Shown here piece after piece: positions 41,281 through 54,942 of a stretch of 64,000 nt of DNA. The stretch is taken from NCBI GenBank assembly GCA_031256035.1, contig JAIRRJ010000002.1, positions 1 through 64,000 on the forward strand. The letters are read 5' to 3'. Both the position numbers and the translations under genes were made by a program. Within the stretch, counting starts at the first letter, position 1; each line of letters begins with the position of its first letter. The notes beneath the pieces are model-generated. The model was not told the origin of the DNA and searched no databases. It saw only the letters and a list, made by a program, of their open reading frames with translations. The stretch comes from Treponema sp. (lineage in GTDB: Bacteria; Spirochaetota; Spirochaetia; Treponematales; Breznakiellaceae).

Positions 41281-41332
41281 TGGGGAGTGGAGGATTCGAA
41301 CCTTCGAAGGCTGAGCCAACAGATTTACAGTC
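41281..41332 (-). repeat. attL: duplicated 3' half of tRNA-Tyr
   Basis: These 52 bases are identical to 54861-54912. They cover the anticodon arm, variable arm, T arm and acceptor 3' strand but not the D arm or 5' end, so this copy cannot be a functional tRNA. The element boundary lies within this repeat. Confidence 0.93.
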
Positions 41333-41452
41333 ATCAATCACCCCTCACGGTAATTCTTTACAGCATAAATAAATACATATCCTGTATAGATTTATCTTAA
41401 TTCCATAGTGTAGTATACTGTCCATATTGTGTCTATACGTCCGATGTAAATT

Positions 41453-41469
41453 CACGATTAATGCACGAT
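41453..41469 (+). repeat. Candidate integrase arm-type site, left end
   Basis: The 17-mer CACGATTAATGCACGAT is repeated exactly at 54761-54777 near the other end. It contains two CACGAT units 11 bases apart. Placement near both ends, one copy directly upstream of the integrase start, fits arm-type sites. Confidence 0.6.
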
Positions 41470-42476: not shown

Positions 42477-43355
42477 TTACTCCCGCAAATTCCAGAAAAG
42501 CTCGCCCTGAATCTCATACTCAGAAGAATCCAGTAACCGCGTTTCTCCGCTTCCGTCTTCCCAGCAGATATAAACTTGAATTCTGCCTTTTCTTCCTTCT
42601 TTTATATTTATCCTTTTCAAAGTGCTTTCATTTTCATAACGAACCAGCATAATCTTACCGTCAACTGGTTCTTCAGCCCGGCGGATAACTACATAATCGC
42701 CGTCATTAATGCCAGCCTTTGACATTGAAGTTCCCTTTACACGAACGCTAAAAAAGTTTTCCGGCCGCCCTTTAAGTTTCTGATGAGGGAAGGGAATGGC
42801 TTGATCCGGATAATACGAAATGTCTATCGGGTAACCCGCAGCGGTGTTGCCGTAGAAGGGGAGCATAAGCATATCCCATTTGACAACCTGTACATTGTCC
42901 ATACGATTGGACTTCGGGATAAAACGTGAAATGTTGATAGCAACCGGATCGTACTCGTACTCTGGGGCCGGGTCTCTGGTGTAGAGGGGGTACACCGGCG
43001 CCTCAGCTTCATACTGCAGCGCTGTAATCATCTTTCTAACTGTCCTTAATGTGCCATCGTCAAGCCCTTCAAGGACTTTAACGATTGCCCGTATCCGTTC
43101 CGGCGCGTCCCAGAGCTTCCCCTCTTTGGCTATAAGCCGCCGTACGTAATCAAGACCCGCATCGCCAGCTACCACCCATTCGACTGTGATGCCAAGGGCT
43201 TCGCAGACTTTATATAAATCATTGACTTTAGGTTCAGTTTCTTCTGATCCTACCCATTTGTCAATAGTCCTTTTGTTGACCCCTGATTTCGCGGCGATTT
43301 CTTTAACAATAAAGCCGGATTTGGCGATGGCGGTTTTGAGATTATTTCTAAGCAT
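42477..43355 (-). CDS. CI/LexA-like phage repressor (HTH plus S24 peptidase)
   Basis: The 292-aa protein has an N-terminal HTH (FIVKEIAAKSGVNKRTIDKWV, about residues 15-35), a linker, a probable self-cleavage site at Ala-Gly in NTAAGYPID, and a C-terminal S24 peptidase with the catalytic serine in RVKGTSMSKAGINDGDYVVI and lysine in ESTLKRINI. It keeps the element silent and would cleave itself when RecA is activated. The promoter region contains the sequence TTTTTTCGCATTG on its coding strand. Confidence 0.88.
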   Translation of the reverse strand: MLRNNLKTAIAKSGFIVKEIAAKSGVNKRTIDKWVGSEETEPKVNDLYKVCEALGITVEWVVAGDAGLDYVRRLIAKEGKLWDAPERIRAIVKVLEGLDDGTLRTVRKMITALQYEAEAPVYPLYTRDPAPEYEYDPVAINISRFIPKSNRMDNVQVVKWDMLMLPFYGNTAAGYPIDISYYPDQAIPFPHQKLKGRPENFFSVRVKGTSMSKAGINDGDYVVIRRAEEPVDGKIMLVRYENESTLKRINIKEGRKGRIQVYICWEDGSGETRLLDSSEYEIQGELFWNLRE

Positions 43356-45549: not shown

Positions 45550-45762
45550 TCAGGGTTTCCGGGGCTTCTTGGGAGCCTCGGCGGGCTGCTTCTTGGGACG
45601 GCCAACTTTGGCGTCTTTGATTTTTTCGTAGGTGTTTGGAGGGTAGATGGAACCGTTAAAGAGAGGCTCAATATCTTCTCGTTTTATTCGCATTTGTGTG
45701 GCATTTTTGGACATTTTCAGATTTTCGGCAAGTTCATCCAGTGTCCAGCCTTTGACTTCCAT
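45550..45762 (-). CDS. Small HTH protein with basic GRP tail, copy 1
   Basis: The 70-aa protein has a helix-turn-helix-like core (WTLDELAENLKMSKNATQMRI, about residues 6-26), then IYPPNTYEKIKDAKVGRPKK and a Lys/Pro-rich tail. The GRPKK core resembles an AT-hook. A paralogue lies at 46917. It is divergent from a structured RNA leader, with a 25-bp palindrome holding its own -10 box, so autoregulation is likely. Confidence 0.65.
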   Translation of the reverse strand: MEVKGWTLDELAENLKMSKNATQMRIKREDIEPLFNGSIYPPNTYEKIKDAKVGRPKKQPAEAPKKPRKP

Positions 45763-46916: not shown

Positions 46917-47147
46917 TTACTTTTTAGCTTTCTTGGCTTTAGGCTTGGCTTCCTGCTTCGCCTTGGGCGGGCGGCCCATCTTTGTGTCACGGATTTTTTC
47001 CAGTGTACCAAGTGGATACATGGCTTCCCTGCTCATGGGTTTTATCCCGGCTCTTTGTATACGCCGTTCAACTGTTCTTTGTGGCAACTTTAGCGCCTTT
47101 GCCATTTCTGTAATGGTAATACCTTCCATACCGTTAATTATCGGCAT
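46917..47147 (-). CDS. Small HTH protein with basic GRP tail, copy 2
   Basis: The 76-aa protein has ITITEMAKALKLPQRTVERRI (an HTH core, about residues 10-30), then AMYPLGTLEKIRDTKMGRPPK and a Lys/Ala-rich tail. It aligns with copy 1 over the whole length (YP-x-x-T-x-E-K-I-[KR]-D-x-K-x-G-R-P). Like copy 1 it is divergent from a structured RNA leader, across an inverted repeat. Confidence 0.65.
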   Translation of the reverse strand: MPIINGMEGITITEMAKALKLPQRTVERRIQRAGIKPMSREAMYPLGTLEKIRDTKMGRPPKAKQEAKPKAKKAKK

Positions 47148-47913: not shown

Positions 47914-47985
47914 TTCATTAACTCCTGAAAAGAATTTTAGTGTCATTTTATTTCAATTATGTACAAAAAGATAGAGGAGGAAGTG

Positions 47986-48273
47986 ATGTCAAATAAATTC
48001 ACCCGGTTTAGCATCCAGGAAATTCTAATGGACGCGGGGCTGGACACACACCAAGCAAGGAAAGCAACAGACAAGATCATCCGGGCTCTGTCTGACTCTT
48101 TGGCTGAAGGTGAACCAGTGGAACTTCGAGGCTTAGGGTCTTTTGAATACCGCGAGCGTAAATCTTATAAGGCGCATAACCCAAAAACCAAAGAAGCCGT
48201 TATGACCAAGCCCAGGCGCCGGATCATCTTCCGCCCAGAGCGGGAATTAAAAGATAATCTCGCGGAACTTTAG
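47986..48273 (+). CDS. HU/IHF-family DNA-binding protein
   Basis: From ATG 47986 (GAGGAGG upstream) the 95-aa protein has an alpha-helical N-terminal dimer part, VELRGLGSFEYRERKSYKAHNPKTKEAV with the beta-arm (NPKT in place of NP-x-T) and RRRIIFRPERELKD. HU/IHF proteins bend DNA and often assist phage recombination or replication. It opens an early-region run. Confidence 0.85.
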   Translation: MSNKFTRFSIQEILMDAGLDTHQARKATDKIIRALSDSLAEGEPVELRGLGSFEYRERKSYKAHNPKTKEAVMTKPRRRIIFRPERELKDNLAEL

Positions 48274-48285
48274 CTGGAGGAAGTT

Positions 48286-48414
48286 ATGAGGGGAAAAAAG
48301 GCAGTGCCTCAAGATACCGATTTGCTGACCGTTATAGAGACCATGTTTTTTCCCAAACTTATTTGTCTTGAAAAATTCTGCATACAGGCAACCGCAACTT
48401 CTTGTATGACCTGA
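48286..48414 (+). pseudogene. 5' piece of an excisionase-like HTH gene, cut by an inversion
   Basis: ATG 48286 (CTGGAGGAAG upstream) opens MRGKKAVPQDTDLLTV, after which the frame runs into inverted DNA and ends at 48414. The rest of the gene is on the minus strand at 48671-48851. Joined at the AT dinucleotide, the pieces give a 76-aa HTH_17/excisionase-like protein. Confidence 0.75.
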
Positions 48415-48549
48415 TTTCAAATGGCTGCTGCTAACAGTGATGGTCTTTCCACAATCACATTTACAATTCCAGAAAAAATGCTTGTCCTTTTCTTTTCTGG
48501 TAAAATTTAATGCTGTGAGTTTACCAAAACGCATTCCAGTTAAGTCCAT
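48336..48549 (-). pseudogene. N-terminal half of an HNH/AP2-type endonuclease, inverted
   Basis: Minus-strand ATG 48549 opens MDLTGMRFGKLTALNFTRKE and a CKCDCGK...SCGCL zinc domain and runs to KKHGLY at the breakpoint. Family members continue with TRLYxIW and an HNH fold. That continuation is at 48852-49120 on the plus strand. Confidence 0.75.
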
Positions 48550-48670
48550 AAATGGCCTCTCTCTCAATTTTTTCCTCCTAAGATTTGGTTTGGTGCGGGG
48601 GCAAGACGGACAGCTCCGAAACCCCCGCTTTTTGAAACGGCCTCTGTTCGCTACTTCATGGCACACCTCC

Positions 48671-48851
48671 TCATATATTCCCCGGCTTCACGCCGGCCGG
48701 AATTTCTCGTTTTGCCATCCATTGTTTAATCACAGATGCTCTTATTAACCTTTGCCCGTTTAATGCCAATATCCAGGGAAAAGGGAGCGTACCGTGTTTT
48801 ATGTGTCGGTGAATGATGCTCTTACCGCAGCGGAGCATTTCTGCGGCTTCA
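48671..48851 (-). pseudogene. 3' piece of the excisionase-like HTH gene, inverted
   Basis: The minus strand reads IEAAEMLRCGKSIIHRHI, KHGTLPFPWILALNGQRLIR and ASVIKQWMAKREIP and ends at TGA 48671-48673. This is the helix-turn-helix and wing of an HTH_17/excisionase-type protein. It has no start codon here; the plus-strand piece at 48286 supplies it. Confidence 0.72.
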
Positions 48852-49120
48852 ATACAACAAAATTATATGCGGTGTGGGAATCTATGAGACAACGATGTAA
48901 TAACCCAAACAGCAAACCTTATCCTCACTATGGCGGCAGGGGAATCGTTATGTGTCAAGAATGGGATGATTTCCAAAATTTCTATAATTGGGCTCTTTCC
49001 AGTGATTATAAAGAGGGTCTGTCAATAGATCGTATTGATAACGATGGTAATTACTGCCCTGAAAACTGTCAATGGATGACAGTATCAGAAAATGCAAGCA
49101 AAGGAAGCAGGAGGGTATAA
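48852..49120 (+). pseudogene. C-terminal half of the HNH/AP2-type endonuclease
   Basis: The segment TTKLYAVWESMRQRCNNPNS, YPHYGGRGIVMCQEW, GLSIDRIDNDGNYCPENCQW carries the HNH catalytic region of phage HNH/AP2-type endonucleases. An upstream ATG at 48794 is in frame, but the residues it adds are antisense to the HTH gene. TAA 49118-49120 overlaps the next start. Confidence 0.75.
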
Positions 49121-49341
49121 TGCGTGGCTTCATATACAGATTAGGAATTGCAATAAAGGAAAGCGGCAAACGCATGGCGCATATCAGGCCGTTCGGGATA
49201 CCAGTGTTCTGGCTGATCTATTGCCCGGTTATCTCTATCGGAAATAAGATAAGGGATTTTGCCGCCAGCCACACTACCGTGGGAGATTTCCAGAAAAACA
49301 AATCCACTGCGGAAATAGAACCAACTGAGGCGAATGCGTGA
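49120..49341 (+). CDS. Small hypothetical protein with one hydrophobic segment, 73 aa
   Basis: ATG 49120 follows AGGAGGG. The protein has a basic N-terminus (MRGFIYRLGIAIKESGKRM) and a hydrophobic stretch (PFGIPVFWLIYCPVISIG, about residues 25-42) that could be a membrane anchor. It overlaps both the HNH stop and the rusA start. Function unknown. Confidence 0.5.
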   Translation: MRGFIYRLGIAIKESGKRMAHIRPFGIPVFWLIYCPVISIGNKIRDFAASHTTVGDFQKNKSTAEIEPTEANA

Positions 49342-49733
49342 AACAGATTTATCACCTCTTTGTGAACGGCACCCCCAAGGCACAGCCGAGGCACCGAACG
49401 ACCGCAAGAGGGCATGTGTATAACCCGAGTTCAGCGGACGCATGGAAGAACGAAATCAAAATGGCTTTTCATTCATGCCGCCAGCCAACCATCATTGGGC
49501 CGGCACGTTTGAAAGTGCTTTTCTGTATGCCGGTTCCGAATGGAAAGAATATTGAAGAAGGCTCACCGCATACGTCTAAGCCTGATACTGACAATTTGTT
49601 TAAGGCAGTCATGGACGCTATGACTGCCGTAGGTGTTTGGAAAGACGATGCCTTGGTGTCTGATGTTACGGCAGGGAAGTTTTACGCTCGGGGAGCAACT
49701 GGGGCGCAAATCATAGTTGAAACAGATTTTTAA
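49338..49733 (+). CDS. rusA: RusA-family Holliday junction resolvase
   Basis: The 131-aa protein contains the RusA core KPDTDNLFKAVMDAMTAVGV (about residues 81-100) and WKDDALVSDV, with the acidic catalytic residues. RusA cuts Holliday junctions during phage recombination and replication. The start is GTG 49338, overlapping the preceding stop (GTGAAA in TGCGTGA). Confidence 0.9.
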   Translation: MKQIYHLFVNGTPKAQPRHRTTARGHVYNPSSADAWKNEIKMAFHSCRQPTIIGPARLKVLFCMPVPNGKNIEEGSPHTSKPDTDNLFKAVMDAMTAVGVWKDDALVSDVTAGKFYARGATGAQIIVETDF

Positions 49734-49744
49734 GGAGAAAGAAA

Positions 49745-50419
49745 ATGAGCAAAGTACAGAACAAAAAACCGGCAGTAGATAATACTATCCAGCCGGTAAT
49801 TGACGAGAAGATCGTGAATACCGTTCACGAGATTTTTGAAGATGTTACAAGGCTTAACGCATTGCAGGACTGTTTTGATGACTTAGCAAACCGCCTCATT
49901 GCGGATCTCGCGGCTAATTCTTTCATGGAATTTAACCTTGAATTGACAGAAAACCAAAAGGAACAGCTCCGGAAGGCAATAAAAATAAAGGGCAACGAAA
50001 CTGTTCGGATATATTTGGCAAAAGTGAATTCTGATGAACGAAGTCAAGAAATATACGGCATTGTCAGAGAAAAAACAACGGAAATTGCTGACAAGGTTCT
50101 CTCAGCAATTGGTCAGGAGATAAACCGCGGTGCCGTTATCAATGCAACCGCAGTACAGGCAAATGCAAAGAGCGAAGATTACGATGAAATATTGCTGCGG
50201 AAAATAAAATCTTCCGGAGACATCACAATTCCCACAAGTTGCGTTTTGATTTCAACTAACTGCATATCGACCATCAAGGCTTCATGCCAGGTACCGGGCA
50301 AAAAAGAGACTTTGGCCAGGCTGAGGTTTGGGGAAAGGAAAACGATTTCCGGGAAGCCTTGGCCAAGGGTACATGGAAAGACATCAAAACTTTTTTCGGT
50401 ATTCCAAAACAAAAACTGA
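49745..50419 (+). CDS. Phage-type hypothetical protein, probably frameshifted near its 3' end
   Basis: The first 170 residues (MSKVQNKKPAVDNTIQPVID..., ANRLIADLAANSFMEFNLEL) are a soluble helical domain that I do not recognise. After about residue 170 the frame becomes serine/cysteine-rich and overlaps the better coding frame at 50284-50685, which is open from 50260. A one-base loss near 50255 (CAACTAACTG) may have split a single protein of roughly 310 aa. Confidence 0.5.
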   Translation: MSKVQNKKPAVDNTIQPVIDEKIVNTVHEIFEDVTRLNALQDCFDDLANRLIADLAANSFMEFNLELTENQKEQLRKAIKIKGNETVRIYLAKVNSDERSQEIYGIVREKTTEIADKVLSAIGQEINRGAVINATAVQANAKSEDYDEILLRKIKSSGDITIPTSCVLISTNCISTIKASCQVPGKKETLARLRFGERKTISGKPWPRVHGKTSKLFSVFQNKN

Positions 50420-50685
50420 GTTACACGGATGCAGAGGGCAACGAAAAATCTATCGGGAAGTTTGGTGAAAGCACCCAAGAAGAATTTGATGAGGTTTTAT
50501 TCAGCCTTCCCGATCTAATTGCCAAATCTAGGCAGGGCGATGAAAGAGCAGGACGTACGGTCAATGAATTGCTCTGGCACCTTGCAAATGAAGGTTTCAA
50601 TACCCGCACATCTGTCAGAGGTTCATTCAGGGAGATTTTCCCGTTCGGCAAACCGGAGGCAGATATTCACGGGAGGATCGCATGA
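50284..50685 (+). CDS. Phage-type hypothetical protein, 133 aa, possibly the 3' part of the preceding gene
   Basis: The frame is open from 50260 and reads LHIDHQGFMPGTGQKRDFGQ, then KGTWKDIKTFFGIPKQKLSY and a C-terminal region with DERAGRTVNELLWHLANEGF. The ATG at 50284 has only a weak AAGG upstream. It either starts by re-initiation or is the continuation of 49745 after a frameshift. It ends overlapping the next ATG. Confidence 0.5.
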   Translation: MPGTGQKRDFGQAEVWGKENDFREALAKGTWKDIKTFFGIPKQKLSYTDAEGNEKSIGKFGESTQEEFDEVLFSLPDLIAKSRQGDERAGRTVNELLWHLANEGFNTRTSVRGSFREIFPFGKPEADIHGRIA

Positions 50686-52159: not shown

Positions 52160-52921
52160 ATGTTGACCAAACATGGCAAAGATTTTATTAAGTTACTCGA
52201 AAATATAAAACCCTCAAAAAATAGATATGAAATCTTTAATGATTGGCTGGTCATGGCCTCCGCTGCTCTTTACTCATGGAAAAAAGATGACGCTGTAGAA
52301 AATGAATATCTGGAAATAGTAAAACAATATAAACCCGAAGAAGTAGATCAACTTAGCCAATTATTAAGTTTAACAGTAGAAGCACTTGAAGATCAGGAAC
52401 AGGATTTTTTAGGTGAAGTATTTACATTTGCCGAACTATCCAATACAAGAAACAGTCAATTTTTCACACCTTACCATATTTCATATCTAATGGCAGAAAT
52501 GGCAATCGGTGAAAAAGAGTTACCAAAAAATCGTGTGTGTAAAATAAATGACCCGTGTTGCGGTGCCGGAGGAATGCTCATCGCCGGCGCCATGGTGATG
52601 AAGAAAATGGGCTTTAGTTTTCAACAGGACGCCCTTTTCATAGGTCAGGACATAGACCCCCGATGTGCACGAATGACTTTTATCCAATTAAGCCTGTTGG
52701 GTGTTCCGGCAGTTATTATCTGCGGAAACACCATAACTCTTGAAATGTATTGGCAAAGGGAAACAATCGGTTACTACATGGCCGGTATGGGATTCCGTCT
52801 CAGAGCAGAAGAACTTATTGAAAGAGTAAAAAACCTTGAGCAGGCAGAACCGGAGCCTGAACAAATACCAATAGAAATTATGATACCCCGAGGGGAATTA
52901 GTCCAAGGGGAATTATTTTAG
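52160..52921 (+). CDS. N6-adenine methylase-like protein without motif IV
   Basis: The 253-aa protein has QFFTPYHISYLMAEMA (about residues 95-110) and a SAM-binding motif I, INDPCCGAGGMLIAGAMV, as in HsdM-type methylases, then FIGQDIDPRCARMTFIQLSL. The catalytic motif IV (NPPF/Y or DPPY) that should follow is missing; the C-terminus goes to GFRLRAEELIERVKNLEQAE. Similar short methylase-like proteins are known on mobile elements. It may bind SAM or DNA without methylating. Confidence 0.7.
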   Translation: MLTKHGKDFIKLLENIKPSKNRYEIFNDWLVMASAALYSWKKDDAVENEYLEIVKQYKPEEVDQLSQLLSLTVEALEDQEQDFLGEVFTFAELSNTRNSQFFTPYHISYLMAEMAIGEKELPKNRVCKINDPCCGAGGMLIAGAMVMKKMGFSFQQDALFIGQDIDPRCARMTFIQLSLLGVPAVIICGNTITLEMYWQRETIGYYMAGMGFRLRAEELIERVKNLEQAEPEPEQIPIEIMIPRGELVQGELF

Positions 52922-52972
52922 GGTTTCTACCATGCCTGTATGGGTGTGGATAAAACGAATATGGAGGTTTGT

Positions 52973-53923
52973 ATGAAAAATGATGAGACAAATACTGCTG
53001 TGGTTATTCCTCTTATTTCCGAAATGGAAATAAGCACTATCAGCGACAATGACTTGGAGACAGCGTTTCTGAAAGTAGCTATCGAACATAAGGACGCTGT
53101 AGTTTCAATCCATCAGAGCATGGTCGATGCGACTGATGCGTATGCAAAGTACCTTAATGAAGGCTATGAACCTATGGAGGAAGTTGCCAAATGTGACAGG
53201 GCAACTTTGAACAAAGCAGAAAAGAACATCGCCGAGAAGTACGCTTCATTGAAAGCGGCGTATGAGAAGCCTCTGGAAAACATTGAGCTGAATATCAAGT
53301 CGATCCGGAACGCTATAAAAAAAGCTTCTGGCATTGTTGATGGAGCCGTAAAAACCTATGAGGAAAAAGAGAAAGGCAAAAAGCGCGAAGAAATCCAGGT
53401 TTATTTTAACACCAAGCAATTTGATCTGGTTCCCTTGGACAAGATTTTCAACAGCAAATGGCTGAATAAAACGTGCAAAATTGCGGACATCAAAAAGGAA
53501 ATCGACATCAGGATCACCACTATTTTAGGCGACATCAAAACCCTTGAAAACATCGCCGAATACGGTCTGGCTGCGAAAACTTTTTACCTTGACACGTTGG
53601 ACATGAGTGTTGCAATGCGGCAAGTAGAAAACATGAAAGCAAACGCCGAGCGCCTTGCCAGGGAAAAAGTCGAGCGTGAAGAACGGGAACGGCAGAAACA
53701 GGTTGCCCAAAATGCGGTCAATGAACACAAAGAGGAACAAACAGCCGCAAAAGAAGAACAGGTAAAAAATCTGGTAGATGAAGCCTTGGACATTCCCGAA
53801 CCGGCAGTGCAATCCCAGCCGGAGATTGTTGAATACACTCTGCGTTTCAAAGGAACAAAGGAGCAACTCTTAAAGCTCCGCGAGTACATGACGGCGAATG
53901 GGATCGTCTATGAAAAGTTGTAA
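52973..53923 (+). CDS. DUF1351-like phage protein
   Basis: From ATG 52973 (ATGGAGG upstream) the 316-aa protein has a long helical middle part (LNKAEKNIAEKYASLKAAYE, IELNIKSIRNAIKKASGIVD), a RQVENMKANAERLAREK coiled coil and a terminal domain ending YTLRFKGTKEQLLKLREYMT. This fits DUF1351, usually next to RecT/annealing genes in phages. No recT follows; the integrase fragment begins antisense within its last codons. Confidence 0.7.
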   Translation: MKNDETNTAVVIPLISEMEISTISDNDLETAFLKVAIEHKDAVVSIHQSMVDATDAYAKYLNEGYEPMEEVAKCDRATLNKAEKNIAEKYASLKAAYEKPLENIELNIKSIRNAIKKASGIVDGAVKTYEEKEKGKKREEIQVYFNTKQFDLVPLDKIFNSKWLNKTCKIADIKKEIDIRITTILGDIKTLENIAEYGLAAKTFYLDTLDMSVAMRQVENMKANAERLAREKVEREERERQKQVAQNAVNEHKEEQTAAKEEQVKNLVDEALDIPEPAVQSQPEIVEYTLRFKGTKEQLLKLREYMTANGIVYEKL

Positions 53924-54736
53924 AAAAGCCATGTCATGCCAATTCAGGCATTCAGGCTTGAGGGCGAATATCTCAGCGCACCGCAGCCCGGAAAGGAACA
54001 TTGCCGCGCACACGGCCAGCTCCATTGTGTCCTTCAAAACGCCCGGGTAAAACAGCCTGACAACCTCATCCTCTGACAGCGCCCCTTTTATTTTGCTTTT
54101 GTATTTGGGCTCTTTTATGCGGCGGATAGGATTAACCCAATTTTTGTTGTTCAATTCATAATTGTTAAACGCCATGCGGACAAATTTCACCACACCGACA
54201 TATGTCCGAGTTCCGCCCATTTGCCGACCGTCTGTAAGTTTTTTAGCCCACATTCTTTTATTGAAACCGTGTATGTCCTGTTCCTCGACTTCTGCCATTT
54301 TCAGACCCAACAGCGGATCCCCTTTGATGTGGAGCCTGTAGTAACTTTCATAATTTTCAAAGGTGTCAATGGACGGGGGTCGGTTTTCAGATATGTTGAT
54401 GTCGGTCCTGGGGCTTGTGTCAATAACTGTAAATTTCTCAATCCATGAGCTGACCAGAACATCCTGCGCCCTAACCCGCAGGGCATTGCCTTGCGCCTGT
54501 CCTTTTTTGAGGTATTCAATGAGGGCTAAGGCACCGGCTTGTGCTGCTTTATTTGATTTAGGGCTGCGGTAATCTGCCAGCTCATTCGGCAGGTCTTTGA
54601 AACTCCGGCGCTGCCATTCCTTGCATATACGGTGTGGAAGCCCGCATGAAGGATTGAGGGTTATTTGAAAGGTCTTAGAATCTCCCCGCTGGGGCGTAGA
54701 AAATGTCTTTGAACGACTGTTTTTTGGCCTGGGCAT
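53870..54736 (-). pseudogene. int: Phage integrase (tyrosine recombinase), catalytic half lost
   Basis: The 288-aa frame has a DNA-binding N-terminus, a SAM-like core-binding domain (IDTFENYESYYRLHIKGDPL, about residues 120-200) and the first catalytic arginine in FLSGLRCAEIFALKPECLNW. Then it runs antisense into the 3' end of the DUF1351-like gene and stops. The HxxR, H and nucleophilic tyrosine are absent, so it should be inactive. No other integrase C-terminal half is seen in the window. Confidence 0.85.
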
Positions 54737-54760
54737 AGCATCTCCTTACAGGATTAAATG

Positions 54761-54777
54761 CACGATTAATGCACGAT
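54761..54777 (+). repeat. Candidate integrase arm-type site, right end
   Basis: Exact copy of the 17-mer CACGATTAATGCACGAT at 41453-41469. Here it lies 25 bases upstream of the integrase start codon and 84 bases from attR, so integrase bound here could also repress its own gene. Confidence 0.6.
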
Positions 54778-54860: not shown

Positions 54861-54912
54861 TGGGGAGTGGAGGATTCGAACCTTCGAAGGCTGAGCCAAC
54901 AGATTTACAGTC
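54861..54912 (-). repeat. attR: element-derived 3' half of tRNA-Tyr
   Basis: These 52 bases equal 41281-41332. They rebuild the tRNA 3' half from the anticodon arm to the discriminator base, so the host gene stays intact after integration. Confidence 0.93.
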
Positions 54913-54942
54913 TGCCCCATTTGACCGCTCTGGAAACTCCCC
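54861..54942 (-). tRNA. tRNA-Tyr(GTA)
   Basis: The minus strand folds as a class II tRNA: acceptor GGGGAGT/ACTCCCC, D arm with AGCGGTCAAATGGGGCAGA, anticodon loop CTGTAAATC with anticodon GTA (54906-54908), a long variable arm (GGCTCAGCC region) and T arm GGTTCGAATCC. The 3' CCA is not encoded. The 3' half is element-derived. Confidence 0.93.

Follow-up and report, generated by a model that had tools for sequence, protein, structure and literature searches.

The window analysed here (64,000 nucleotides, bases 1–64000 of the 69,665-bp contig C77) comes from a Treponema draft genome (3.12 Mb, 120 contigs, 94.87% complete), whose flagellar and lipoprotein genes would suit a spirochaete. Within the early region of a prophage remnant, two broken genes lie between a gene for an HU-like protein and an intact RusA gene, and a 516-bp segment that contains part of each of them is inverted:

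47959–48273, + strand: HU-like DNA-binding protein, with the broken HTH_17 gene following directly (Pfam Bac_DNA_binding, 73.4 bits; 54% identical homologue in genome G008)
48286–48335, + strand: 5' portion of the HTH_17/excisionase-family gene, not moved by the flip (MRGKKAVPQDTDLLTV); its N-terminus resembles MRGSKAVPQ of genome G024
48333–48335: left inversion junction, shared trinucleotide TAT
48336–48851: inverted 516-bp segment; it holds the HNH 5' part and the HTH_17 3' part, with once-intergenic sequence between them, and both gene parts are now on the − strand
48336–48549, − strand: inverted 5' portion of the HNH endonuclease gene (MDLTGMRFGK...KKHGL; phrog_374 positions 189–267, 81.6 bits)
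48671–48851, − strand: inverted 3' portion of the HTH_17 gene (EAAEMLRCGK...KPGNI; 20.8 bits against Pfam HTH_17 in its present form)
48852–48854: right inversion junction, shared trinucleotide ATA
48852–49120, + strand: 3' portion of the HNH endonuclease gene, not moved by the flip (TTKLYAVW...GSRRV; phrog_374 positions 269–350, 132.4 bits)
49338–49733, + strand: RusA Holliday-junction resolvase, intact neighbour (Pfam, 83.2 bits; 62–63% identical in genomes G008 and G061)

Flipping 48336–48851 in silico rejoins both an HTH_17/excisionase-family frame and an HNH endonuclease frame on the + strand with no internal stops. The restored HTH_17 gene (MRGKKAVPQDTDLLTV joined to IEAAEMLRCGKSI...) spans 231 bases including the stop codon and encodes 76 amino acids; the restored HNH gene (...KKHGLYTTKLYAVW...) spans 483 bases including the stop codon and encodes 160 amino acids. 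Across these 714 bases there is neither an internal stop nor a frameshift, and relative to the intact frames no base was gained or lost at either end. The length of the repaired frames is weak evidence for an inversion: among 40,000 random inversions of the region, 661 (1.7%) yielded two + strand ORFs with a summed length at least as great as the real one. Summed ORF length was therefore dropped as a poorly discriminating criterion of chance, and homology, which is the strong test, was used instead.

For the endonuclease, the two halves as they stand cover adjacent, non-overlapping stretches of phrog_374 (189–267, then 269–350), which shows that the pieces fit together at the inversion joint. 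Residues 2–154 of the restored protein align continuously to positions 196–350 of the same family with 222.8 bits, and the protein is 44–53% identical to its relatives. Among 35 fetched loci carrying both halves, a few of which overlap or are near-identical, the halves are adjacent, in order and on one strand in 34, with one split outlier; in 14 of the 35, the commonest case, they are separated by precisely the single codon lying across the junction, and the spacing in the others differs by at most 10 codons. The restored HTH_17 protein scores 36.4 bits against Pfam HTH_17 (curated cut-off 27), as against 20.8 bits for its present C-terminal half, and 30.6 bits against the NCBIfam model 'excise' (cut-off 28.8). 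With both scores above their cut-offs, the 76-residue product is predicted to be a member of the HTH_17/excisionase family. An excisionase role is uncertain, since in relatives the gene sits by RusA, away from the integrase. Alignments of both restored genes to relatives cross each joint without an indel at the breakpoint.

These results bear out, through both the frames and the Pfam HTH_17 and phrog_374 homology, the original prediction that reversing this segment repairs two genes, that both then lie on the strand of their neighbours and that one of them encodes an excisionase-like HTH_17 protein. The other gene had been described as a complete HNH/AP2-type endonuclease: the HNH assignment stands (phrog_374, PHROGs), and the AP2 assignment falls, as no Pfam family, AP2 included, matched the restored endonuclease at E values up to 0.1. 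The restored protein thus resembles free-standing phage HNH endonucleases of phrog_374 over residues 2–154 and differs from them in that its gene is split here by an inversion.

Related elements give the order of these genes before the flip. A genus-wide whole-genome search with the restored HTH_17 protein recovered G061, G008 and G024, and a search of viral contigs with the same protein gave no match. G008 carries HTH_17, HU, a homologue of the protein encoded at 49120–49341 and RusA, with no HNH gene in between, and in G061 RusA and then a homologue of 49745–50419 come after HTH_17. The 67.6-kb viral contig L096, which has a full-length integrase, carries HTH_17 before RusA on one strand and an HNH relative (44% identical) about 2.5 kb past RusA, and in G003 the gene immediately preceding DUF1351 is an HNH relative (about 53%). 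A scan of genome contigs with the HNH protein returned nine distant relatives, of which the HNH halves were examined. In G008, G061 and L096, HTH_17 shares the early-gene strand and sits shortly before RusA, and the gene order in these three and in G003 identifies the uninverted orientation as ancestral; where related elements carry the HNH gene, it is uninterrupted. Because the position of the HNH gene differs between relatives, it was probably a mobile insertion originally, placed differently among related phages. No near-identical copy of the same DNA was found in viral contigs (exact 21–23-mers), 296 genomes of the phylum, plasmids or phages.

The closest HTH_17 homologue (L078, 1622–1819, in G024; 48% identical, starting MRGSKAVPQ) is also broken, after LPFPWFMPYP. 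The remainder of its gene is absent from this 3.9-kb contig, a second and different break in the same gene family. Separately, related prophage proteins on L076 (8997–9854) and L096 (7535–8473) end in ...SSVGGVAPAFCVA after a variable-looking region, and their sequences are reminiscent of the targets of diversity-generating retroelements.

The present joints read GTTAT|AGAG on the left and TTCA|ATACA on the right. The ancestral sites share 3 bp in inverted orientation (TAT/ATA), one base more than the AT dinucleotide that the original prediction had assigned to both junctions. The inversion is present in the assembled sequence with its ends fixed to within 3 bp, the cut position being uncertain by that much because both sites share these bases. 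At least 3 bp would be shared by random breakpoints 516 bp apart with a probability of 0.06, and the inverted-repeat similarity of the breakpoint flanks (5 to 25 bp) is at chance compared with random AT-centred sites (p 0.33 to 0.51). The earlier remark that no long inverted repeats are visible therefore holds, and it extends to imperfect repeats, of which none above chance lies at the ends.

The element that hosts the inversion is bounded at tRNA-Tyr by perfect 52-bp att repeats and measures 13,580 bp. Its further features are:

41281–41332: attL, 52-bp direct repeat forming the left end of the element (perfect 52/52 match to 54861–54912, spacing 13,580 bp)
42477–43355, − strand: CI-like repressor (HTH_3 and Peptidase_S24; Pfam, 26.6 and 62.5 bits)
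52160–52921, + strand: N6 adenine methyltransferase of the early region (Pfam N6_Mtase, 47.3 bits; 56% identical in L096)
52940–53923, + strand: DUF1351 protein, its stop codon abutting the integrase fragment (Pfam, 59.7 bits; 55% identical in G003)
53870–54736, − strand: truncated tyrosine integrase, ending after about residue 265 of about 437 (53% identity to residues 5–265 of the intact, 437-aa G061 integrase)
54861–54912: attR, 52-bp direct repeat within tRNA-Tyr (54861–54942, − strand)

The C-terminal ~170 residues of the integrase, where tyrosine recombinases have most of their catalytic residues, are absent from the contig and have no close match elsewhere in the genome. No structural gene was recognised among the larger ORFs of the element searched against Pfam and PHROGs. 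The truncated integrase comes to within about 15 bp of the DUF1351 stop codon (window 53924–53940), and the early genes oppose the integrase here, whereas in relatives both point one way. This joint and the opposed orientation imply a second rearrangement together with loss of the integrase 3' part. A single larger inversion was rejected as the cause of the misplaced integrase: the C-terminal part would then be expected near the left end, it is not on the contig and has no close match in the genome, and a further deletion would be needed. Having been hit by at least one other rearrangement, and with att repeats, a truncated integrase and no recognised structural gene, the element is very likely a defective prophage. 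It resembles cryptic prophages, described in Treponema among others, in which deletions and rearrangements leave some prophage genes (PMC11144348), and differs in that one of its lesions, an inversion spanning two genes, is clean and can be reconstructed.

Other parts of the element also drew attention. Homology of the protein at 49745–50419 to its relatives ends at residue 182, where an overlapping ORF (50284–50685) starts in another frame; window positions 50284–50300 are possibly a further recombination joint. Two paralogous small HTH-like proteins with GRPKK-type basic tails are encoded on the − strand (45550–45762 and 46917–47147) and have homologues in related prophages. A 23-bp near-identical repeat (TAAATnCACGATTAATGCACGAT) occurs at 41447–41469 and 54755–54777, roughly 115 bp inward of attL and 85 bp inward of attR, and looks like an integrase arm-type site.

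Taken together, these observations make it probable that a recent, balanced 516-bp illegitimate inversion inside the early region of this defective tRNA-Tyr prophage split the two genes. This was one of the two readings originally offered, and the 3-bp microhomology, the chance-level flanks and the defective host element support it. Most likely, two breaks, at 48335 and 48851, would have been sealed in the wrong orientation by an illegitimate process in which a few bases paired, perhaps end joining, an error by a topoisomerase or template switching, and the flip would thereby have split the HTH_17/excisionase-family gene and the HNH endonuclease gene. Since half of each domain is lost, we infer that both genes were inactivated. 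Neither broken gene has acquired a further stop or frameshift, which suggests that the flip is young. It was presumably tolerated because the element, whose integrase lacks its C-terminal catalytic part, has probably lost the ability to excise or to form particles. Like other illegitimate (non-homologous or microhomology) inversions of bacteria, this one is a balanced flip between sites with a few inverted bases in common; it disrupts genes and adds no sequence. In Salmonella, every experimentally confirmed spontaneous rearrangement had short repeats at its ends, and confirmation succeeded for putative inversions with at least 12 bp but not for those with 7 and 9 bp (PMC3411829); against that background, an inversion at 3 bp is unusual.

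Because an illegitimate inversion at 3 bp is such an uncommon event, some probability falls to an assembly or library artefact, in which chimeric reads or an assembler error would have made false junctions at 48335 and 48852. The genome is a draft of 120 contigs, 94.87% complete, and possibly a metagenome bin, and the junction homology is within the range of random joins. Such an error would, however, need two independent and exactly reciprocal false joins, with no base lost and both winning the consensus; no repeat at the ends is long enough to mislead an assembler, and the bin holds no second copy of the region. We regard an artefact as unlikely. That the present arrangement is itself functional, with the halves serving as separate genes or the segment coding for something useful as now oriented, we consider almost certainly wrong: short ORFs do exist as things stand, but they pass out of gene fragments into antisense DNA, both the HTH_17 domain and the HNH endonuclease are interrupted at conserved positions, and no relative examined shares the arrangement.

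The other original reading was an on/off switch, in which a site-specific recombinase would flip the segment reversibly and turn the HTH_17 and HNH genes on and off together. Variation through inversions that cut across coding sequences is known (PMC11892184), and both frames come back exactly and without further damage, as they would in a reversible switch. Invertons of the Hin/Gin (serine) and Mpi (tyrosine) invertase types likewise invert a short segment with exact ends and alter which coding sequences stay intact. Known invertons, however, carry inverted repeats of 10–40 nt at their flanks (PMC11892184), and no such repeats lie at both ends here, where 3 bp are shared between flanks at chance level. 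No Resolvase-domain (PF00239) protein was detected in the 94.9% complete draft genome, in a search that was positive in 10 of 14 control genomes, and no recombinase gene was recognised among the neighbouring ORFs searched beside the segment. With neither a Resolvase-family enzyme nor arms found, the suggestion that the junctions hold a serine-recombinase core was rejected. Several tyrosine recombinases are encoded elsewhere in the genome, and one acting in trans is conceivable, but it would have no arms to bind at the segment ends. The bin holds the region once and in one orientation, and the flipped form is absent from all relatives examined. With the element itself defective, the switch reading is unsupported, and we judge it very unlikely. 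Its specific form, in which an unrecognised recombinase acts on the TAT/ATA core and the prophage toggles an early DNA-binding regulator jointly with an HNH endonuclease, is in our judgement slightly less probable still. Were both orientations to be present in reads, this would be an inversion system almost without an inverted repeat, which would be surprising.

As a caution, the exact repair of two frames does not alone imply a switch. The illegitimate inversion described here looks like ordinary decay of a dead prophage, and nothing points to a genetic switch. It offers a clean case of gene loss in dead prophages, in which the ancestral sequence is exactly recoverable and the joint is therefore open to study at the level of single bases.
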